From: a virus
Strand: one strand, 5' to 3'
IMG/VR virus record: IMGVR_UViG_3300037041_000414
Location: 1-33,571 of that record
DNA length: 33,571 nucleotides
Positions 692 through 21,624 of the stretch are shown in pieces; positions within the stretch are counted from its first letter, which is position 1; each line of letters begins with the position of its first letter. Both the position numbers and the translations under genes were made by a program. The notes under the pieces were generated by a model, which worked only from the letters and a program-made list of their open reading frames with translations, was not told the origin of the DNA and searched no databases.

Positions 692-712
692 GTTTCAAAA
701 GTACGTCAAAAA

Positions 713-3539: not shown

Positions 3540-3938
3540 CTAAAATTCAAATGTGGTTTGGACGGGTTGGTTGGTGATCTTCATGATCGCGATTTGACGT
3601 TCCGCCATTTCCCGAATGGATCGGATCGCGTTTTCCCTGGATTTCAATGAATCGATCCAATCCTCGATTTCCTCGATTGAATCCGCGACGAAATAACCCT
3701 TGGACGTTGCGATCAATCCCACGACCAAATTGTTCAATCGAATGTATTGGATCATTTTTCGGACCCTGGATTCCTTGAATTCAATGTTGAAATGGGTTTT
3801 CAATCCGTCAATGATCGCGTCGGCGGTGACGATGTGTTGTTTTCCTTTTTTGGTGTTGAACCTCTGCACGATCACACCAACGAATTTTTGTTCGTCGGGT
3901 GACAATTCAACGGTGTGTTCCTCGAATGTTTTGATCAT
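3540..3938 (-). CDS. Putative winged-helix DNA-binding protein, 132 aa
   Basis: The region at about residues 35-95 reads as a winged helix: TADAIIDGLKTHFNIEFKES, RVRKMIQYIRLNNLV, then a wing around ATSKGYFVADSIEEIEDWID and a closing SLKSRENAIRS helix. Proteins with the pattern 'R-x(2)-I-x(2)-IR ... GYFVA ... EEIxxWIxSLKSR' are common in phages and are usually called DNA-binding or replication-associated proteins. The gene starts at 3938 after AACAACAAC. It lies at the end of the early block just before the packaging genes, so it could be a transcriptional regulator of the early-to-late switch. That role is inferred. Confidence 0.65.
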   Translation of the reverse strand: MIKTFEEHTVELSPDEQKFVGVIVQRFNTKKGKQHIVTADAIIDGLKTHFNIEFKESRVRKMIQYIRLNNLVVGLIATSKGYFVADSIEEIEDWIDSLKSRENAIRSIREMAERQIAIMKITNQPVQTTFEF

Positions 3939-4337: not shown

Positions 4338-4800
4338 TGTGAAATTTCATTTTGGTGATTGATTCGAAATCGGTTCGGCGGATCCATGTTCGGAAAAATG
4401 TTCCGCGTTGAAAATTGGCCTCCATTCGGGCCATGTCGTCGGGTTCCATGAACATTTCCGACAAAACGTTTTTGGTGGTGAACTTGAATTGACCGTCACC
4501 CAATTCGTTTTCGAACACTCGGACGGACAAATTTCCGTCGGCCATGTCTTGGGCCTCAATCAAAACGTCGGATTGGTTTGTCACCCCGATCAATTTGAAT
4601 TGGGATTCGTCGGTTGGCATGGCGGCCAAATACGCGTTCAATTCGGATTCGGTTCCGTGGAATTCAATGACCCCGTATTTGGTTTTGGTTTGACACCCTT
4701 GGGTGTATTGTTTGAACGTGTCGTCCCAATGAATGGTTCCGACGTATTGTTTCAACTGAATGTGAAACGTGTGTTGTTCGTTTGGATCGATTTTTTTCAT
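4327..4800 (-). CDS. Hypothetical protein, 157 aa
   Basis: A 157-residue soluble protein with no recognised domain. It mixes beta-rich segments (HTFHIQLKQYVGTIHWDD, KYGVIEFHGTESELNAYL) with an acidic loop and an aromatic C-terminal third (RGTFFRTWIRRTDFESITKM). It is the first gene after the 93-base intergenic region that holds an inverted repeat and an early-promoter-like upstream element, and it is preceded directly by a five-fold AAC repeat. It may therefore start a separate early transcript. Confidence 0.75.
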   Translation of the reverse strand: MKKIDPNEQHTFHIQLKQYVGTIHWDDTFKQYTQGCQTKTKYGVIEFHGTESELNAYLAAMPTDESQFKLIGVTNQSDVLIEAQDMADGNLSVRVFENELGDGQFKFTTKNVLSEMFMEPDDMARMEANFQRGTFFRTWIRRTDFESITKMKFHNEK

Positions 4801-4817
4801 GTTGTTGTTGTTGTTGT

Positions 4818-4851
4818 GGGACGAATATCGTTCAAAATCGACATTCGTCCC
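4818..4851. promoter_or_regulatory. Inverted repeat upstream of the 157-aa gene
   Basis: Arms gggacgaatatcg (4818-4830) and cgacattcgtccc (4839-4851) pair at 12 of 13 positions around an 8-base loop (ttcaaaat). There is no T-tract on either side, so it is not a typical terminator. It lies where the -7 to start region of a promoter would be, 18 bases from the ATG at 4800. It could be an operator or an mRNA 5' hairpin. Confidence 0.6.
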
Positions 4852-4876
4852 AATGTTTGTTCAATTGGTTTTCAAC
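4852..4876 (-). promoter_or_regulatory. Early-promoter-like upstream element (degenerate copy)
   Basis: The minus-strand element GTTGAAAACCAATTGAAC (plus 4859-4876), followed by ACAAACATTGGGACGAA, aligns with the dyad and -33 region of the promoter at 11128-11180 (GTTGAAAATAATTCAAC, then AAATTTGTGGGAACGAA). The -33 core is ATTG and not TTTG, and the -7 box is poor, so promoter activity here is less certain than at the other three sites. Confidence 0.4.
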
Positions 4877-4893
4877 ATTTTTTTGTTGATGTG

Positions 4894-5295
4894 TTAAAAT
4901 GGCAAATCGTCACCGTCGTCATTTGGACCCGTGGTTTGATTCTGCGGTTGTGCCTGGGTGTTTGATCCCGATCGGTTTGGATCCGCTAAAATTTCCACGT
5001 TGTCGGCCACGATTTGGGGATCCTTGCGGATCATTCCATTCGAATCGGTCCATTCACGGATTTCCAATCGACCGTCCACGGCGATTTTTTGTCCTTTGCG
5101 AACGTATTGGGCGGAAAATTCCGCGCCACGGCCAAATTGGGAAACGTTGAACCAGGTGGTTTTTTCCTCCTTTGTTCCGTTGCGGGACCATTTTTCCGTG
5201 ACGGCCACCGAAAAATTGGTGACGTTTGTTCCTTGTCCGATTGTTTTGGTTTGGGGATCCTGGCCCACACGCCCGATCACAATGATTTTGTTCAT
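4894..5295 (-). CDS. ssb: Single-stranded DNA-binding protein
   Basis: Coats single-stranded DNA during replication and recombination and recruits partners through its C-terminal tip. The 133-residue protein starts MNKIIVIGRVGQDP, has the OB-fold strand pattern (TNFSVAVTEKW, TTWFNVSQFGRGAEF, GQKIAVDGRLEIREW) up to about residue 105, then a Gln/Asn/Pro-rich linker and the acidic tip DDGDDLPF, typical of bacterial SSBs. The size is slightly shorter than cellular SSBs. It lies in the early block downstream of the replication proteins and the RecT-type recombinase, its natural partners. The ATG at 5295 is preceded by AAAAACAAC. Confidence 0.95.
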   Translation of the reverse strand: MNKIIVIGRVGQDPQTKTIGQGTNVTNFSVAVTEKWSRNGTKEEKTTWFNVSQFGRGAEFSAQYVRKGQKIAVDGRLEIREWTDSNGMIRKDPQIVADNVEILADPNRSGSNTQAQPQNQTTGPNDDGDDLPF

Positions 5296-5304
5296 GTTGT
5301 TTTT

Positions 5305-5559
5305 TTATGGTTTGATAATTGAAAACGGTTTGTTCGGTTGAATGATCCCTTGGGGGTCGGCGATCAATTTGTTGTTGTCCAACCACATTTCGAACGACCA
5401 CCCCATTGGGTGAACGGCGCGATCCATTGGTTCCCCATTTTTGTCCAATTGTTGGACGCCATTTTCGTCCATGGCGGGTTCGATTTTACACTCGGAAATG
5501 TATTCCCGTTGCAACAAAAACAACGTGGCGTTCCCGAAATGAATTTGTTTTTTACTCAT
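5305..5559 (-). CDS. Hypothetical protein, 84 aa
   Basis: An 84-residue soluble protein, unrecognised, starting at 5559 and overlapping the end of the upstream replication-type gene by eight bases. It contains an acidic loop (EPAMDENGVQQLDKNGEPMD) and a Trp-containing region (HPMGWSFEMWLDNNKLIAD). Its place between a replication gene and ssb suggests a role in early DNA metabolism, but no motif supports a specific one. Confidence 0.75.
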   Translation of the reverse strand: MSKKQIHFGNATLFLLQREYISECKIEPAMDENGVQQLDKNGEPMDRAVHPMGWSFEMWLDNNKLIADPQGIIQPNKPFSIIKP

Positions 5560-6403
5560 ATTGGTTTGATTTGATTGATTGAATGGTTTCGCGGAAATCG
5601 ATGTTCGATTCCAACATTGATTGGAACAATCGTTCCACGGCGATTTGACGGGCGCGGGTGACGAATTGTTGTTGAATTGATTGTGGTGTCAATCCGTCGG
5701 ACAACGCGTCGCGGATTTGACGGATTTCACGGGCGCGATCACGGGATTCGGGACGTTCGGATTCCAAACGTTGTTTGACCTGGGGTTCGGCGATCTTCAT
5801 GATTTCGTTTTTGTCTGCGATCGACAATTGGATCAACCCCATTTTTTCCAATGTCAAAAACATGTGATCGGATCCGAACACGTTGATCCAATCGATCCGT
5901 TTGGTTTTGGTGAATTGATCCCAACGTGGTCCAATGTAATTTTCAACGTAATCCCAAAACGACGCGATCCGTTCGGCCTCCGTTGGTTCGGTTTTGGGTT
6001 CCAACGCTTTCAATTTGTTGTTCATTTCGATCAACGCGGCCCCGCGTTTTTCTTTGTACGCGTTCATGACGTTGGCCAAATACATGGCGTTGAAATTTTG
6101 GAAATGTGACAATTCCACGTCCAATTCCCCCGCGACCGCCATTCGGAACGCCAATTTGATTTCGGCGGGTGTGAATTGTTTCAACTCGGTTTGAATGAAT
6201 TCCAACAAAACCATTTTTTGAATGTCCGTTGGTAAATTTTCCGCTTTCAAACCGATCAACGCGAACACATACCGCAACGATTGACGGATCGGTTCGTCGT
6301 CGGTCAATTGACGGATTGGGGTGTCCTGGGTTGCGGCCTCTGCGATTTCGCGTCCCTTAAAACTTGCGAATTGAATCGTCGAAATCGGGTTTCGAACGAC
6401 CAT
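5552..6403 (-). CDS. Putative replication-associated protein, 283 aa
   Basis: A helical 283-residue protein. The most family-like stretch is residues 60-120 (ELKQFTPAEIKLAFRMAVAG, then a FNAMYLANVMNAYKEKR motif), a layout of phage proteins next to replication initiators that are usually annotated only as hypothetical or replication proteins. A C-terminal part rich in Arg, Glu and Gln may bind DNA or a helicase. I place the start at the ATG at 6403: the run of Asn codons before it is the AACAACAACAACAAA leader found before many starts here, so the longer form starting at 6424 is unlikely. The 5' end overlaps the previous gene by 47 bases. Confidence 0.6.
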   Translation of the reverse strand: MVVRNPISTIQFASFKGREIAEAATQDTPIRQLTDDEPIRQSLRYVFALIGLKAENLPTDIQKMVLLEFIQTELKQFTPAEIKLAFRMAVAGELDVELSHFQNFNAMYLANVMNAYKEKRGAALIEMNNKLKALEPKTEPTEAERIASFWDYVENYIGPRWDQFTKTKRIDWINVFGSDHMFLTLEKMGLIQLSIADKNEIMKIAEPQVKQRLESERPESRDRAREIRQIRDALSDGLTPQSIQQQFVTRARQIAVERLFQSMLESNIDFRETIQSIKSNQYE

Positions 6404-7166
6404 TTTGTTGTTGTTGTTTTCCATTTTGTTTTCGAATTTTGATCCAATTTTTCAAAGTTAGGGAAACCGACATGTATTTTTTCGACACCTGGGAATGGTT
6501 TTCCATGGCCTCCAAAACCTCAATGATTTCCGCGCGGGAAAATTCCGCCTCCAATTTTTCACATTGATCGTTTGTCAATTGGTTTTTGATTTTTGCGACA
6601 TTTGGGAAATTTTTCACCACATGATCAATCAAAAAATGAACATGTCCATGATCAACCAATTCATGGTCCGACACACAAACAACATTGTTGTTTGTATTAT
6701 TTGAAATTGAATTTGAAATTGAAATTGTAGGGGTTGGAATTTGGTTGTCCTTTTGCTTATCCAAACGACCAACCGATTTTGTCAAATTTGGATTCCCTCC
6801 CAATTTGCCAACCTCCCGTCGGACTTGGCGAATCCGTTCGTCACCGACCATTCGTTTGGAAAAAAACCGACCGTTTTCGTCACACTTTAAGATTCCGAAA
6901 TTTGTCAATTCATTCCACACTTTTTTGAATTTTTTCGGCGACATTCCGACCAATTTTCGGACACCGTTTTCGTCTAAAATTTGATTTCCAATTTTCAAAA
7001 CTCCGATTTCGTCGGACAAAAACATGACACACAACAAATCAATCCAAACACCGCGGGTTTCGAATGAACACATTCGCAACGACGGATCCGTCAACCAATC
7101 CCCCGCGTAAAATTGAAACGCGGGTTGGCGATCCCTGGAATTTTGTTTGATCTTGTTGTCGTTCAT
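6357..7166 (-). CDS. Putative replication initiator / helicase-loader protein (DUF1376-like)
   Basis: The N-terminus at residues 16-49 (AFQFYAGDWLTDPSLRMCS, TRGVWIDLLCVMF) is the hallmark of DUF1376-like phage replication proteins, where an FYxGDWLxDP start and a TRGxWxxLL helix form a winged-helix domain. A Lys-rich central segment (GMSPKKFKKVWNELTNFGI), an Asn/Ser linker around residues 150-165 and a C-terminal helical domain (EIIEVLEAMENHSQVSKKYM) follow, fitting an origin-binding or loader protein of 269 residues. The ATG at 7166 overlaps the upstream stop. The C-terminal QQQQ run coincides with the AAC-repeat leader of the next gene. The phage has no helicase or polymerase of its own that I can see, so this protein probably recruits the host replisome. 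Confidence 0.75.
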   Translation of the reverse strand: MNDNKIKQNSRDRQPAFQFYAGDWLTDPSLRMCSFETRGVWIDLLCVMFLSDEIGVLKIGNQILDENGVRKLVGMSPKKFKKVWNELTNFGILKCDENGRFFSKRMVGDERIRQVRREVGKLGGNPNLTKSVGRLDKQKDNQIPTPTISISNSISNNTNNNVVCVSDHELVDHGHVHFLIDHVVKNFPNVAKIKNQLTNDQCEKLEAEFSRAEIIEVLEAMENHSQVSKKYMSVSLTLKNWIKIRKQNGKQQQQNGRSKPDFDDSIRKF

Positions 7167-7558
7167 GATTTCACCGTTTCAATCAATTGGTTGAATCGTT
7201 GGTCGCGGATCTTGCGTTTCCCCGCGATCACATTGTGAACAAAGGTCATTGAAAATTGTGGATTGTTGTCCACGAACTTTTGAATTGATTTCCAACGTGT
7301 AATCAACGCGACACGAACAAATTCGCGGTCCTGGGTGTTGATACATTCCGCACATGGTGGAACGGGTGTCGTCACGATCAAACGTTCGATGTCGGTCAAC
7401 ACGTCCAACATGTGATCGTTTTCCATGCGACCATTGAACGCATTGGTCGCGGTCCAATAATTGAACCGCGCCAACGCGCAAAATTGACGAATGGATCCGA
7501 AACGCGATTTGATGTTGGTTTTGATCCGTTGGATCCTTTTGTGGGTCACTTGTTTCAT
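7163..7558 (-). CDS. Tandem helix-turn-helix-like protein, 131 aa
   Basis: Two similar halves can be aligned by eye: residues 12-60 (IKSRFGSIRQFCALARFN with a following TNAFNGR) and 81-130 (ITRWKSIQKFVDNNPQFS with a following HNVIAGKRK). Each has the layout 'xxRFgSIxxF ... F ... xxxxxGxxx', reminiscent of Xre-type HTH units in Bacteroidota phages. A CAEC pair (69-72) joins the halves. A protein carrying two HTH units in one chain could bind an inverted repeat such as the dyads upstream of the early promoters. The start ATG at 7558 overlaps the recombinase stop by ATGA. Regulatory function is inferred. Confidence 0.6.
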   Translation of the reverse strand: MKQVTHKRIQRIKTNIKSRFGSIRQFCALARFNYWTATNAFNGRMENDHMLDVLTDIERLIVTTPVPPCAECINTQDREFVRVALITRWKSIQKFVDNNPQFSMTFVHNVIAGKRKIRDQRFNQLIETVKS

Positions 7559-8556
7559 TTGTTGCCTCCGTTTTGATCTTCAAACATTTCGATTTGTTCC
7601 CCATTTTGAATTTTCACCACGCGTTCGATCGCCGCGTCCAACACGTCACGACGTTTTTCGTCCAACGTTAATTCCAACACCTCGGATTCGGTTGAACAAT
7701 CATTGATCAATGTGATCATTTCGTCGGGTGATTTCAAATCGGATTGGGGTTCCTCTGCGGGGGGTGATTCCAAACGTTTGCGTTTGTTCGTCAACGATTG
7801 TTTGAAATCGGGGTTTCCATGCAAATCGGAATTGTTTTTCCAAATGATCACCAAATCGTCCACGGTTGTCGCCGCGGCGATGTTTTCCAACAATGATTTG
7901 ATCCGATTGATTTCGTCGGCGAATGTCTGCGGTTTTGGTGGTTCGATTTGGGCCACCTGGATCACGGGTTGTTTTTTGGATTGTTTTGGTTTCGGATCTT
8001 CAACCGTCACATGATCCACGTCCATGGTGTTCAATTCCTCCGCGGTGTATGGCATGCCACCCAATTCGTCCGAAAAACACAATCGGAAACCCTGGGCCAT
8101 GGCGACTTTTTTGATCATGGTCATGGGTTTGGATCCCCAAAATTTGTTCAACGCGCCCTCCTTTGTGGTTCCGAAATACTCGGAAAAATAAACCTCATGA
8201 ATGAATGGGTGTTGAAAATCACGACGGTGGATCGTGATTTCGGCCCTCAATGTTGATTCCTTTGGTTTTTGGAAATTGACGGATCCGTCGGTTTTCACCG
8301 ACCAACCCGACAACAAACCCGAACGTTCCGCCCGTTTGATGTATGTTTCATATCCGACAATGACGGAAAATTGGTTCCCGTATTTGTTCGCGTAAATTTC
8401 ACGCTTAAATGGGTTCAATCCGAAACCTTGGGCGATTTCCACGAATTGTTCGAATTCGCCCTTGGTCAAATTGTTCGCCATTCCCATGGCGTTCAAATAC
8501 GTTTGTAATTTGCCCACGTCAATCGTGTGGACTTGGTTTTTTTGAATCTCGTTCAT
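7555..8556 (-). CDS. bet: RecT/Bet-family single-strand annealing recombinase
   Basis: Anneals complementary single strands in phage recombination-dependent replication. The 333-residue protein has the RecT/Redbeta core at about 1-175: a GLNPFKREIYANKYGNQFSV region with the following VGYETYIKRAERSG (47-80), and the closing FWGSKPMTMIKKVAMAQGFR with FSDELGGMPYTAEE (139-174). The remainder is a charged, Pro-rich tail with no known fold. I chose the ATG at 8556 because it is preceded by AACAACAACAAA and a well-formed promoter; a longer frame would cross the promoter. No exonuclease partner was recognised nearby, though the 160-residue gene just upstream often accompanies such recombinases. SSB is encoded further down the same block. 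Confidence 0.93.
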   Translation of the reverse strand: MNEIQKNQVHTIDVGKLQTYLNAMGMANNLTKGEFEQFVEIAQGFGLNPFKREIYANKYGNQFSVIVGYETYIKRAERSGLLSGWSVKTDGSVNFQKPKESTLRAEITIHRRDFQHPFIHEVYFSEYFGTTKEGALNKFWGSKPMTMIKKVAMAQGFRLCFSDELGGMPYTAEELNTMDVDHVTVEDPKPKQSKKQPVIQVAQIEPPKPQTFADEINRIKSLLENIAAATTVDDLVIIWKNNSDLHGNPDFKQSLTNKRKRLESPPAEEPQSDLKSPDEMITLINDCSTESEVLELTLDEKRRDVLDAAIERVVKIQNGEQIEMFEDQNGGNK

Positions 8557-8580
8557 TTTGTTGTTGTTTTTGGGTTTCTG

Positions 8581-8633
8581 CGAATATACAATCGAATGAT
8601 CGTTCCAACAAATTTTGTTGAAATCATTTCGAC
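8581..8633 (-). promoter_or_regulatory. Early promoter with upstream dyad, before the recombinase gene
   Basis: On the minus strand: a dyad GTCGAAATGATTTCAAC (plus 8617-8633), a -33 box TTTG (8609-8612), a 20-base spacer, and a -7 box TATATTCG (8581-8588). Known Bacteroidota promoters have TTTG/TTG at -33 and TAnnTTTG at -7. A leader with AACAACAACAAA follows and then the ATG at 8556. The dyad overlaps the end of the upstream gene. Confidence 0.75.
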
Positions 8634-9106
8634 AATGTGATTTCAACGGTTGTTTTGGACGTTTTCATTGGCGGGTTGAATTCCACCATTTCACCCGTTT
8701 CGGGATCCACGTTCACGGTTGATTTGTTCAACGTTTTCAATTGGGCCTCCAATTGTTTGCGATTGTCTGCGGCGGTGTCCTCGATCGCTTTCAATTCGTT
8801 CCATTTGGCCGTTTTCGAAAAATCGTATTTCACCGCGGTTTCCTTATGTTTGAACGTGACGCCCAAAATTTTGACGCCCGTTTTGGCCTCGGATCCGTAC
8901 AAATACAAATCGTCGGTCGCGGTTTCGCGCAACCTGGAAATGGCGTTGTCGATCACCTGGGACATGAATTCCAATCGGGCCAACGCGGTCAACGTGTCAA
9001 CGCGTCCGTCGTCATTGGCGTCAATGATCATTTGTGTGAATTGTTCCGCGCGGGATTTGGTCAATGATGTTTCCGCGTTCACCATTTGGAGGAAATTTTG
9101 TTCCAT
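8624..9106 (-). CDS. Hypothetical protein, 160 aa, recombination neighbour
   Basis: A 160-residue protein whose first half is helical (SRAEQFTQMIIDANDDGRVD, ALARLEFMSQVIDNAISRLR) and whose second half alternates Lys-rich helix and strand, ending KTSKTTVEITLSK. I know of no named domain; genes of this type are frequent beside RecT-like recombinases in Bacteroidota phages. The ATG at 9106 is five bases from the preceding stop. The longer in-frame extension lacks a good start and would cover the preceding gene. The stop lies inside the dyad of the recombinase promoter. Confidence 0.75.
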   Translation of the reverse strand: MEQNFLQMVNAETSLTKSRAEQFTQMIIDANDDGRVDTLTALARLEFMSQVIDNAISRLRETATDDLYLYGSEAKTGVKILGVTFKHKETAVKYDFSKTAKWNELKAIEDTAADNRKQLEAQLKTLNKSTVNVDPETGEMVEFNPPMKTSKTTVEITLSK

Positions 9107-9110
9107 TGTT

Positions 9111-9452
9111 TTATGGGTTTTGATTGTTGGACAATTTTGATAATATACACGCGACGACGGATTGTCCGATTGAACCGACGTTGATGTTGTCAATGAATTC
9201 ACGAACCGCGTCCACCTCCATGAACTGAATGGATTGGCGGTCGATTTTGATCCCGAACGCGTTTTCCTTGTTCATGTGGTGGATCATGAACGAAATTTCC
9301 AAATCACAAAACCGATCAAAAATCCACGACAACATTGTGATTTCGTTTGTATCTTTGACCTCGTTGTTGTTGTTCGGCGTTTTTCGTTGAACATTGGGTC
9401 GGGCGGGGATCACTTGGTTGTGGTTCCCGCTTGGCTTTTTTGGTTGTTGCAT
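9111..9452 (-). CDS. Hypothetical protein, 113 aa
   Basis: The first 35 residues are polar and probably disordered (QQPKKPSGNHNQVIPARPN and an NNNN run); the rest is a compact domain with helices (ITMLSWIFDRFCDLEISFMI, HHMNKENAFGIKI, VGSIGQSVVACILSKL). The true ATG is at 9452, just after the stop of the upstream gene. Unrecognised family; an early gene by position. Confidence 0.7.
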   Translation of the reverse strand: MQQPKKPSGNHNQVIPARPNVQRKTPNNNNEVKDTNEITMLSWIFDRFCDLEISFMIHHMNKENAFGIKIDRQSIQFMEVDAVREFIDNINVGSIGQSVVACILSKLSNNQNP

Positions 9453-9454
9453 GA

Positions 9455-9757
9455 TCAAAAATCGACGTTTGGGATTCGGAAAAATTTGTCAATGGCGTCC
9501 AACGCCGTGTCCAATGTGTCGAAATCGATCGACGTGAACAATCGGAAAAAATCCCCGTCCCGTTGGATCACGAAAACGCGGTTGTCCTTGGTCCAAAACT
9601 CCGCGCCAACTTCATGGTTGACGGCGAAACGTCGGGCGTTGATTTTGATCAAATGGTGACGAACGATCGCGATCGCTTCATTTGGTTCGTTTGGCGTTGT
9701 GTAACGGGCCACCATTTCAAATTGTGGCGTTTCCTGGGTGTTGTTGTTTGGGAACAT
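9455..9757 (-). CDS. Hypothetical protein, 100 aa
   Basis: A 100-residue soluble protein starting at the ATG at 9757, with beta-rich middle segments (NEAIAIVRHHLIKINARRF, FWTKDNRVFVIQRDGDFF) and a short C-terminal helix. No known motif. It is transcribed with the early block; a 25-base gap separates it from the zinc-finger-like gene upstream. Confidence 0.72.
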   Translation of the reverse strand: MFPNNNTQETPQFEMVARYTTPNEPNEAIAIVRHHLIKINARRFAVNHEVGAEFWTKDNRVFVIQRDGDFFRLFTSIDFDTLDTALDAIDKFFRIPNVDF

Positions 9758-9782
9758 TTGATTTTGATTTTTATGGTTGAAA

Positions 9783-10085
9783 TTAAATTTCGTATGTGAT
9801 TATGAATTCGGGACCGACTTTTTTCGCACATTCGGAACCGATTGGAAAACAACCTTGGGATTCCAAATCATGTTGGCCCAAATCGGATTCGTCAATGTTG
9901 GCGGGGATCAAAAATCCGTCGGTTGTGAAATGAACAAACGATCGTTTGGCGGTTGATTTTCCGCAAATGAAACATGTGTTTGAATGTTCGCCATATCGTT
10001 CGACGTTGTCGTCGTATTTGGCGGAACGTACCGAATCCAATTCGATCACGTTGATCCCGTTGTGGGGGGTTGTTTTGATTTTCAT
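9783..10085 (-). CDS. Small putative zinc-binding protein, 100 aa
   Basis: Four cysteines are placed like a zinc knuckle: C38-x2-C41 (CFICGKSTAKRS) and, after about 37 residues, C79 and C86 (GCFPIGSECAKKVG). The second half resembles the closing 'G-x-ECAKKV' of small phage zinc-ribbon proteins that bind nucleic acid. It is the first gene behind a promoter with an upstream dyad and an AACAACAACAAA leader, so it is expressed early. A role in host takeover or regulation is possible but unproven. Confidence 0.7.
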   Translation of the reverse strand: MKIKTTPHNGINVIELDSVRSAKYDDNVERYGEHSNTCFICGKSTAKRSFVHFTTDGFLIPANIDESDLGQHDLESQGCFPIGSECAKKVGPEFIITYEI

Positions 10086-10105
10086 TTTGTTGTTGTTTTG
10101 TTTGG

Positions 10106-10158
10106 CTAATTTACACCGATTTTTGATTCAAACAAATTTTGTTTGTGAAATATTCAAC
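10106..10158 (-). promoter_or_regulatory. Early promoter with upstream dyad, before the zinc-binding gene
   Basis: Minus strand: dyad-like GTTGAATATTTCAC (plus 10145-10158), -33 TTTG (10133-10136), a 19-base spacer, -7 TAAATTAG (10106-10113), then a leader with AACAACAACAAA before the ATG at 10085. Spacing and boxes match the Bacteroidota consensus; the right arm of the dyad has one mismatch. Confidence 0.75.
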
Positions 10159-10357
10159 AATTGATTGTTGATTCGATCGAACAACGGATCGTCAAATCCT
10201 CGTTGTGGGCGTAACGATACCCCGACGGATCGGGATCGAACGCGATCAAATCGAAATGTTGGACGATTTTGTTGAACATTGTTTCGGCTTGTTCCTGGGT
10301 TTCGAATTGAATCGATCCCGAACACGAATCCAATGAAATGATCAATGTTTTTTTCAT
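10154..10357 (-). CDS. Hypothetical protein, 67 aa
   Basis: A 67-residue protein from the ATG at 10357 (ATGA overlap with the upstream stop): MKKTLIISLDSCSGSIQFET, a helix with ETMFNKIVQHFDL, then an aromatic and Cys-containing C-terminus. Unrecognised. Part of a run of three tightly coupled small early genes. Confidence 0.68.
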   Translation of the reverse strand: MKKTLIISLDSCSGSIQFETQEQAETMFNKIVQHFDLIAFDPDPSGYRYAHNEDLTIRCSIESTINC

Positions 10358-10626
10358 GATTGAAAAATGGTTTGGTTGTTTCCCCATTTGTTGATCACCT
10401 GGATCGCATGATCCAACGATTGGCGATCCATGTCGTTGTGGCCAAATTCATGACCGCGGAACGACACCCCAAAATATATTGGCGAAATGAATGGTTTGGA
10501 TCCGACGGCGATTGTTCGTCGATAAACGGTCAAAATGATTTCAAAACCATTTGACGTTTTTGTCGTGAACGACTTGGAAATGGTCGTTGTTTGACTGAAT
10601 TTTTCGGTTGTTGTTGTGATCTTCAT
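10354..10626 (-). CDS. Hypothetical protein, 90 aa
   Basis: A 90-residue, Thr-rich protein beginning MKITTTTEKFSQTTTISKSF, followed by strands (GFEIILTVYRRTIAVG) and a helix (RQSLDHAIQVINKW). Both ends overlap neighbours by ATGA, a clear sign of a translationally coupled operon. No known domain. Confidence 0.7.
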   Translation of the reverse strand: MKITTTTEKFSQTTTISKSFTTKTSNGFEIILTVYRRTIAVGSKPFISPIYFGVSFRGHEFGHNDMDRQSLDHAIQVINKWGNNQTIFQS

Positions 10627-10847
10627 GATTCAATTGTTTCGATTTCCATTGTGATTTGAACGTCGGACATTCCGATCGTTGTGAATGATCCGTCCATTTG
10701 CTCGGTCCAATCCAAACCGTGGTGATCACATTGTTCATTGAACGCGTTTTCCGCTTTGATTGGATCCACAAATTCACGACGTGAAAATTTGGTGGTGACA
10801 TGTTCAAACCTGGGTTGAATTGTCAAAATGTAGGTGGTCAATTCCAT
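10623..10847 (-). CDS. Hypothetical protein, 74 aa
   Basis: A 74-residue acidic protein starting at the ATG at 10847, after AATAAAACAACAAC, with a beta-type N-terminus (ELTTYILTIQPRFEHVTTKF) and an acidic C-terminus (SDVQITMEIETIES). It follows a strong GC-rich hairpin that separates it from the first early gene. Function unknown. Confidence 0.7.
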   Translation of the reverse strand: MELTTYILTIQPRFEHVTTKFSRREFVDPIKAENAFNEQCDHHGLDWTEQMDGSFTTIGMSDVQITMEIETIES

Positions 10848-10863
10848 GTTGTTGTTTTATTGT

Positions 10864-10885
10864 GGGCGGGGTGTGATCCCCGCCC
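10864..10885. terminator. GC-rich hairpin with the T-tract on the plus side
   Basis: Perfect 8-bp arms gggcgggg (10864-10871) and ccccgccc (10878-10885) around a 6-base loop. A T-rich stretch (TTATTTTTT) follows on the plus strand, which would make a rho-independent terminator for plus-strand RNA, although no plus-strand gene is visible. On the minus strand the hairpin is followed by ACAATAAAAC, so it would act there only as a structured element between two early genes, or as a stabiliser of the upstream message. Confidence 0.55.
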
Positions 10886-10895
10886 GTGTTATTTT

Positions 10896-11102
10896 TTAAC
10901 GAATGAACCACCCGATTTTGGCGTTCAAAATTTGAATGAACAATGGGTGATTTTCGGACATTACAATCCAAAATTCGCCATTTTGCAACCACGCCCCCGT
11001 TCCAAACTCGGAACGTGGTGACGCGTTTTCCCACGCGTCGTTCAATGTTGTAAATGCGGGAACCTGGGTTCCAAAAAATTCGATTGTGAATTGATTTTCC
11101 AT
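10896..11102 (-). CDS. Hypothetical protein, 68 aa, first early gene
   Basis: A 68-residue protein from the ATG at 11102, directly after AACAACAACAAC. The sequence is ordered and slightly hydrophobic (MENQFTIEFFGTQVPAFTTL, WLQNGEFWIVMSENHPLFIQ). The in-frame extension upstream would translate the promoter leader and was rejected. It is the first gene after the late terminator and a strong early promoter, so it is probably among the first expressed after infection; a host-interaction role is possible. Confidence 0.7.
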   Translation of the reverse strand: MENQFTIEFFGTQVPAFTTLNDAWENASPRSEFGTGAWLQNGEFWIVMSENHPLFIQILNAKIGWFIR

Positions 11103-11127
11103 GTTGTTGTTGTTTTGTTTCATGTGG

Positions 11128-11180
11128 TAAAAGTACACCAAAATTTCGTTCCCACAAATTTTTGTTGAATTATTTTCAAC
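11128..11180 (-). promoter_or_regulatory. Early promoter with upstream dyad, before the first early gene
   Basis: Minus strand: perfect inverted repeat GTTGAA-AATAA-TTCAAC (plus 11164-11180), -33 TTTG (11155-11158), a 19-base spacer, -7 TACTTTTA (11128-11135), then an AAC-repeat leader and the ATG at 11102. It lies between the late terminator and the first early gene. Confidence 0.75.
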
Positions 11181-11204
11181 AATGTTTTGTTGATCGTGGA
11201 CAAA

Positions 11205-12053: not shown

Positions 12054-12066
12054 CAAATATACGTCA
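12054..12066 (-). promoter_or_regulatory. Candidate -7 box (TATATTTG), repeated element copy 1
   Basis: Minus strand TGACGTATATTTG, in which TGA is the stop codon of the preceding short gene and TATATTTG (12054-12061) is a perfect Bacteroidota -7 box, 16 bases before the next ATG. The same 13 bases occur at 19738-19750 in the same gene context. No clear -33 TTG at the right distance, hence low confidence. Confidence 0.35.
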
Positions 12067-19737: not shown

Positions 19738-19750
19738 CAAATATACGTCA
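19738..19750 (-). promoter_or_regulatory. Candidate -7 box (TATATTTG), repeated element copy 2
   Basis: Minus strand TGACGTATATTTG, identical to 12054-12066 and again starting with the TGA stop of the preceding short gene. The perfect TAnnTTTG box ends 16 bases before the ATG at 19722. The nearest TTTG upstream is 25 bases away, longer than usual spacing. Confidence 0.38.
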
Positions 19751-19945: not shown

Positions 19946-21624
19946 TTTCGAAAATATTGTTTGATTGTTGATTTTTCGATTTGATATTCGTCCAACAACG
20001 CTTCGACCAATTTGTGGACCTTTGGGTGTGTTTCAATCAACCATTCGGGGGCGTACACATACGCGGTCAACGATTCCGCCCAAAATTCGGAAAAATTGGT
20101 TTGTCCGTATTGGGTCGGGGCGTCCCGTTTTGCCACCTTTAATTTCCTCATGATCGATTTCATTTTGGGGTGTAAATTTGGATCGACTTGGTTGTGGATC
20201 AAATGGGCGAATTCATGGGTGATTGTTGGGGCGATGTTTTGATCAACCGCACGGGAAACCGACGACATTGACCAAAATTTCCCGCCATTGTATCGTGTCG
20301 CCGAAACGTTGGAACATTCGTTCGAATAATTTCGACCCTCAATTTTTTGTCCCTCGTTGTAAAGTATTGACAACCGTTTGTTGTTTGTCCAACATGCCCC
20401 GTTTGCGTTTTTTGGAACATAGGGAATCCGTTGGGGATCGATTTGTGGTTTGTTTTGCCACAACGCCGAATTTTTGTTTGACGACGGATCCGCCCGTTGT
20501 GAATCGTCCAACAATGAAATGATCGTTTGATTTTGATTTGTAATTTTTGCGGCCCCGTCTTGGTTTTCAATCAATTCAAAAAATGATTTTTGAACCGATT
20601 CGGGCGCGGTGGTTGCCACAAAATTCGGATTGATTTTGTCAATGGATTGTTTCGCTTGTTCCTTTGACGTTTTGTTGGCGTCATTTGTGACCTCTGCGAT
20701 TTGATCGTCAATTTTTGATGTTTGTGTGGCCGCGTTTTTGGCCGCGTCAATTCCCAATTGTTCACGTTGGGATTTGGTCAATTTGAACGGGATCGCCGAA
20801 TGTCTGCAATTGTAACCGCCACGGAACACCGCGAAATTTTCCTCGTTCGTTCCTGGGATCATTCCCGTCCCGTTGTTGGTGGCCCAACTTATTTGTTCGG
20901 CCAAATCGGATTTTTGGATCACCCGCATGTTCACCCAACGACGACATTGGGGTCGTGAATCGTCGATCAACGAACCGACGTATCGAAACGCGTCCAATCC
21001 GAATTCCTCCGCGATTTTGGCGTTCACCTGGCCGTCGTATTGGTTCAACGCGTCCCGACTTATTTGTTTGACGTAACGGGAAAACAATCCGTCCACGTTT
21101 GGATTCCCCAAAATGTACGTCGTCAAATATTTTTCCAAATCGGTGATCGTCGTTCCCGCGACAACGTTTTGAAAAATCCCCGTTCGAATGGGTTCAATGA
21201 AATTTGTGTTGACACCCGATCCCGTCAAACCCGTCAACGTTTGTTCGGTCATTTGTTTTTGGATCGGGGTGATCAAATCCTCCAATTCCTTTTTTGACAA
21301 TTCATTCACGTCGCGGTGGACGTCAAAATTGAATTTGTTGATCGTGTTCCAATCGGACAAATAACTCGAAACGGCGACGGGATATTTGGAACGTTTGATC
21401 GCGTTGGCGATTATTTGGTCCACCTCGTTCACCATTTCCGTGTTGGAATCGTCAAAAATGATTTTTCCGTCCTGGGTTTTCATTTTGGCGATGTGTTTTT
21501 TCACCGCCTCAAATATGGTTTGTTGGGTCGGATCCAATGATTCAAACAAATCGTTGTTGATTGTTGAAATGGTCCGATCCTTTTTTTCAATGATCCGAAT
21601 GATTTCGTCCGTGAATTCCGCCAT
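19942..21624 (-). CDS. MuF-type minor head protein with C-terminal HExxH metallopeptidase-like domain
   Basis: Residues 1-300 are a MuF/SPP1 gp7-like minor head protein: a long helical part, then FRYVGSLIDDSRPQCRRWVN (213-232) and FRGGYNCRHSAIPF (267-280), the DxRpxC...nCRHxaIP signature. After a polar linker (300-380) comes a second domain of about 170 residues with THEFAHLIHNQ (HExxH at 470-474) and, about 40 residues later, FSEFWAESLTAYVY (511-524), which provides a Glu as likely third zinc ligand. MuF proteins ejected with DNA are known to carry toxin-like C-terminal domains, so this may act inside the host, or be a prohead-processing protease. Length (560) is about twice the MuF core. 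It follows the portal gene, as usual. Confidence 0.85.
   Translation of the reverse strand: MAEFTDEIIRIIEKKDRTISTINNDLFESLDPTQQTIFEAVKKHIAKMKTQDGKIIFDDSNTEMVNEVDQIIANAIKRSKYPVAVSSYLSDWNTINKFNFDVHRDVNELSKKELEDLITPIQKQMTEQTLTGLTGSGVNTNFIEPIRTGIFQNVVAGTTITDLEKYLTTYILGNPNVDGLFSRYVKQISRDALNQYDGQVNAKIAEEFGLDAFRYVGSLIDDSRPQCRRWVNMRVIQKSDLAEQISWATNNGTGMIPGTNEENFAVFRGGYNCRHSAIPFKLTKSQREQLGIDAAKNAATQTSKIDDQIAEVTNDANKTSKEQAKQSIDKINPNFVATTAPESVQKSFFELIENQDGAAKITNQNQTIISLLDDSQRADPSSNKNSALWQNKPQIDPQRIPYVPKNANGACWTNNKRLSILYNEGQKIEGRNYSNECSNVSATRYNGGKFWSMSSVSRAVDQNIAPTITHEFAHLIHNQVDPNLHPKMKSIMRKLKVAKRDAPTQYGQTNFSEFWAESLTAYVYAPEWLIETHPKVHKLVEALLDEYQIEKSTIKQYFRK

Follow-up and report, generated by a model that had tools for sequence, protein, structure and literature searches.

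A palindromic operator overlapping the early promoters of a probable Bacteroidota-type phage, with a candidate Cro-like regulator

Early promoters with a shared operator

Three early promoter-like sites of this virus share a 20-bp palindrome, TTCAACAAA-NN-TTTGTTGAA; in each, the -33 TTTG lies within its right arm. We consider with good confidence that this palindromic operator is real. It may serve a Cro-like early shut-off by the protein encoded at 7163-7558, which carries two predicted helix-turn-helix (HTH) domains in tandem; this reading is tentative, with a probability of roughly 0.45, and the identity of the binder, the repressive sign and the timing are the parts of it that we infer. 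Early gene control appears to be little described in Bacteroidota phages, and a limited search of the open-access literature found no description of an operator at their early promoters. As operator, promoters and candidate binder can all be named from the sequence, the circuit is directly testable.

Genome layout

The window, i.e., the whole stretch of 33,571 nucleotides analysed here, starts and ends with the same 127 bases, which gives a circular unit of 33,444 bp. All recognisable genes are located on the minus strand. The structural and lysis genes (tape measure, portal, amidase) run towards 11.3 kb; below ~11.1 kb are small unknown genes and those for a RecT-like protein, a replisome-organiser-like protein, SSB and terminase. 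The label "early" for the region from 11.1 kb to 3.5 kb was assigned from this gene content. Among the proteins scanned, neither an integrase nor a match to a repressor family was found, and most early proteins match no family at all.

The sequence probably belongs to a small tailed virus of a Bacteroidota-type host. The host is deduced only from the promoter and leader type, since searches of genome contigs yielded no relatives for TerL and only distant ones for RecT (in Xanthovirga, Spirochaetes and other MAGs). INPHARED contains no near-identical phage: its TerL relatives are all below 60% identity, the best among those listed at ~27%. The phage group is uncharacterised; the switch itself is of a known kind. 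For comparison, relatives were gathered as 62 loci by TerL, and more by RecT.

A palindrome over the -33 region

The original prediction described an inverted repeat of the type GTTGAA-n-TTCAAC at four sites, 4 to 8 bases upstream of the -33 box. In this register, the repeat is exact only at 11164-11180, once in the window with 0.21 expected by chance in a gapped search. If one mismatch is allowed and the spacer runs from 3 to 7, it occurs seven times versus 3.1 in shuffles, so that it was rejected as the conserved unit, its count being near chance except at one site. The repeat at 11164-11180 bridges two neighbouring palindromes: its halves are the right arm of one and the left arm of the other. 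The conserved unit is the 20-bp palindrome, which was found at six places in the window with up to three mismatches, versus 0.15 in shuffles, the consensus being drawn partly from the window's own sites. Five of these places correspond to the four sites proposed earlier (minus-strand starts 11194, 11169, 10172, 8622 and 4890); the sixth, starting at 20594, is coding. The idea that the early promoters share an element for a regulator to bind is supported, in a corrected register. The palindrome overlaps the TTTG rather than preceding it, and this points to occlusion more than to activation from an upstream site.

At the first early promoter (A), the proximal operator TTCAACAAAAATTTGTGGGA (11150-11169, minus strand; TTTG at 11155-11158) is orthologous in G001, G002 and G004. 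A distal copy, ATCAACAAAACATTGTTGAA (11175-11194, minus strand), is situated 25 bp upstream, and the tandem pair is present in the same three genomes. At promoter B, the proximal operator ACAAACAAAaTTTGTTTGA (10128-10146, minus strand; TTTG at 10133-10136) has an arm match of 8/9 and is the best genome-wide match of matrices trained on relatives. Its distal companion ATCAACAATCAATTGTTGAA (10153-10172, minus strand) is weaker in G001 and absent in G002. Both promoters thus have a second palindrome ~25 bp upstream (11.15-11.19 kb and 10.13-10.17 kb). Operator C, TTCAACAAAATTTGTTGGAA (8603-8622, minus strand; TTTG at 8609-8612), lies at the recT promoter; the first gene after it encodes the recT-like annealing protein (7555-8556, minus strand), with the tandem-HTH gene directly next. 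The left arm of operator C, TCAACAAA, falls outside the core promoter and is invariant in the window and L003-L007 (six genomes), while the spacer between -33 and -7 varies among them.

When 9-bp arms were taken from the -33 NTTG, eight sense-strand promoter-like sites of the window and its relatives matched at 8-9 of 9 positions, compared to none on the antisense strand and 0.2 in shuffles; in L014, the match is perfect (9/9). These controls, together with the invariant recT arm and the excess of palindromes over shuffles, make it improbable that there is no operator and that an A-rich upstream element beside the TTTG box produces palindromes by composition. Composition does find some support in the abundance of AACAA and TTGTT leaders in the genome and in the scores of a stricter matrix, built solely from relatives that lie outside the clade of the window and compared with 20 shuffles. 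In the window, this matrix ranks the palindrome at 10146 (site B) first, above all 20 shuffles; the recT palindrome (C) comes fourth and the 11169 palindrome (A) is outside the top eight, the scores of A and C being within the shuffle range. In G004, the same matrix places the three early sites first to third, yet below the best shuffle.

Promoter elements

The three promoter-like sites, as originally proposed, are present on the minus strand, each upstream of an early gene: TTTG-N19-TACTTTTA for A (11158-11128), TTTG-N19-TAAATTAG for B (10136-10106) and TTTG-N20-TATATTCG for the recT promoter C (8612-8581). Their spacings of 19, 19 and 20 bases agree with the ~19-20 bases of promoters of the Bacteroidota sigma-ABfr type, in which transcription is expected to start 4-5 bases after the -7 box. 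Bacteroidota primary-sigma promoters consist of a -33 TTTG and a -7 TAnnTTTG (PMC6847099). The latter consensus is found at none of the three sites. The boxes of A (11128-11135, minus strand), B (10106-10113, minus strand) and C (8581-8588, minus strand) are near matches only; that of A is a poor match and misfits even TAnnTTnG. Since the -33 signal of F. johnsoniae promoters is weak (PMC6847099), the TTTG here may be an operator feature more than a part of the promoter. In the phage family, a TTG at that spacing accompanies only 12 of 34 distinct -7 boxes, and most of these 12 are of the palindrome class.

Within the -33 to -7 spacer of the recT promoter lies a small inverted repeat, GAAY-N4-RTTC (8587-8610, minus strand), with one mismatch in the window; its fourth pair changes jointly in L003-L006. 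The first early gene (10896-11123) may start at an inner ATG at 11102 (MENQFTIEFF), which comes after the leader AACAACAACAACATG, instead of at 11123. A second promoter-like class has TGACG directly followed by TAnnTTTG, without a -33 TTTG (19738-19750, 12054-12066 and 696-708, minus strand). It counts three sense-strand copies and no antisense copy in the window, and three copies each in G001 and G002; these are possibly late promoters.

The fourth site and the hairpins

The fourth site of the original prediction (4859-4876, a dyad with a weaker core) does contain a palindrome, but no convincing promoter. Palindrome D, ATCAACAAAAAAATGTTGAA (4871-4890, minus strand), lies just 3' of the ssb stop codon and is operator-like; it is kept in G001 and G003, and partly in G004. 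The supposed core is one arm of a stable 14-bp RNA hairpin (4817-4852, minus strand; -23.1 kcal/mol, z -6.7), directly before ACAACAACAACAACATG. Hairpins occupy the same place in G001, G003 and G004, with a different sequence in G004, and the search of Rfam gave no match. The fourth site does not fall into the promoter type of A-C.

Strong hairpins at 4817-4852 and 10864-10885 (minus strand) directly precede the A-rich leaders ACAACAACAACATG and AATAAAACAACAACATG, which belong to the genes at 4800 and 10847. In relatives, hairpins of other sequence are found in such pre-leader places, and a leader or processing element is a possible role.

Conservation in related phages

Lack of conservation in relatives, which the original prediction named as grounds for refutation, counts against the earlier register at the recT promoter, as its upstream GTTGAA half is missing there in L004-L006. 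The corrected palindrome, in contrast, is kept in related phages. In G002, G005, G010 and G011, it is present at the first early promoter and at the recT promoter, and these are the top two matches there, a ranking that is partly circular because sites from most of these lineages had gone into the matrix. In G007-G009, the first early promoter carries a weaker variant, and the recT promoter lacks the palindrome. In G012, no operator was seen; a high-scoring match at 7110 was discarded, being in a coding region.

The position of the operator is not fixed. In the recT upstream alignments, its distance to the -7 box varies from ~8 to 25 bp: in L014 and L015, it adjoins the -7 box, ~15 bp closer. 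This shift fits a blocker better than an activator, as a blocker better tolerates such a displacement. It bears on the alternative that the operator is an activator site, where a phage protein bound over and upstream of the -33 box would recruit the polymerase to poor -7 boxes. Such a role would account for the off-consensus -7 boxes of the window and for the distal palindromes upstream of -40, and the weak -33 signal in F. johnsoniae (PMC6847099) allows the TTTG to be operator rather than core. Activation is nevertheless unlikely: besides the variable distance, the palindrome covers the -33 region even in relatives whose boxes are a perfect TATATTTG or TACATTTG, and an activator that acts early but is encoded downstream of the promoter it serves would need another start.

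The gap between the TTCAA and TTGAA half-sites, as read from alignments, also differs by lineage: N10 in the window clade, N11 in G005, G006, G010 and G011, and N9 in G007-G009. Such drift between phage lineages suits a co-evolving phage protein better than a host regulator or nucleoid protein. Binding of the palindrome by a host factor, which would be there from the onset of infection, thus seems quite improbable.

Candidate binding proteins

Both proteins originally put forward as HTH-like are indeed predicted HTH proteins. The product of 7163-7558 (minus strand, 131 aa) is modelled by AlphaFold2, with high confidence, as two four-helix domains (pLDDT 92.7), both resembling the lambda-repressor-like (XRE/POU-specific) fold. 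Residues 1-66 match the POU-specific domain of Pit-1 (Z 9.1, 2.1 Å over 64 residues), and residues 67-131 match the folds of MBF1, BldD and C-protein (Z about 6-7). Values of about 6-9 are modest for helical proteins, and the Pfam XRE model does not match this protein; therefore, the XRE assignment rests on the predicted fold. The gene is part of the recT gene run, and an orthologue is present in every operator-bearing genome examined.

The second candidate (3540-3938, minus strand, 132 aa, phrog_2113) is predicted to adopt a winged-helix fold, with a long helix at the C-terminus (pLDDT 85.8). That it is the binder, rather than the tandem-HTH protein, is rather unlikely. The modelled long helix could dimerise and the protein is conserved in the phage family, but its predicted recognition helix, RIRKMIQ, is near-invariant also in relatives lacking the operator, and the protein is encoded close to the terminase genes.

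A PDB sequence search with both proteins gave no meaningful relative. Operator-lacking relatives (G007-G009 at recT, L040 and L049) possess both HTH genes, so their presence alone does not name the binder. The operator-bearing genomes share a helix motif of the first domain, NY(W/F/Y)TxTN, which G012 has as well. Covariation of helix and operator was not retained as proof of the binder: operator presence requires only two changes on the RecT tree, which leaves it little power, and G012 is an exception.

Proposed mechanism

Cro-like repression by the tandem-HTH protein is favoured because of the overlap with the -33 region, the -7-adjacent site of L014 and L015, the tandem copies and the location of the HTH gene in the recT run. 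The product of 7163-7558 would bind the palindrome, either dimeric or as a two-headed chain, cover the -33 region and exclude the RNA polymerase. At the two promoters with a second operator ~25 bp upstream, binding could be cooperative. The protein would build up and eventually turn off its own gene along with the other early genes, as this gene belongs to the recT run, which has its own operator. An early shut-off protein is likelier than a lysogeny repressor, since one strand holds the recognisable genes and the proteins scanned yielded no integrase.

A wider version of this reading is doubtful, albeit possible: a single-chain, two-headed lambda-fold regulator would act as the common early switch of an undescribed phage group, in which the half-site spacing (N9, N10 or N11) changes between lineages along with the DNA-reading helix. 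The lineages that differ in this spacing form natural test pairs.

Comparison with known systems

In phage lambda, the palindromic operators of OR and OL cover early promoter elements, are arranged in tandem ~24-25 bp apart and are bound by Cro and CI; Cro shuts off the early genes and itself. The arrangement read from the window is similar, with early promoters that are overlapped by palindromic operators, in two cases as tandem copies (~25 bp), and a phage-encoded candidate of predicted lambda-repressor fold in the regulated early region. In contrast to lambda, the window phage has no divergent promoter pair, its candidate has two HTH domains in one chain, and the promoters are of the Bacteroidota type; no lysogeny module came to light among the proteins scanned, where most of the early ones match no family.

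With the Bacteroidota primary-sigma promoters (PMC6847099), the window shares a TTTG and TAnnTTxG-like boxes 19-20 bases apart, as well as A-rich leaders with no obvious Shine-Dalgarno sequence. It differs in its imperfect -7 boxes and in the location of the TTTG inside a palindrome arm, so that this TTTG need not be a sigma contact. SPP1 offers a further comparison: this virulent siphovirus has several early promoters, and gp34 is its putative small repressor (PMC6316719). In the sections of that source considered here, no shared operator is described, and the host belongs to another phylum. SPP1 resembles the window phage in having several early units on host-type promoters, together with a candidate small DNA-binding protein.
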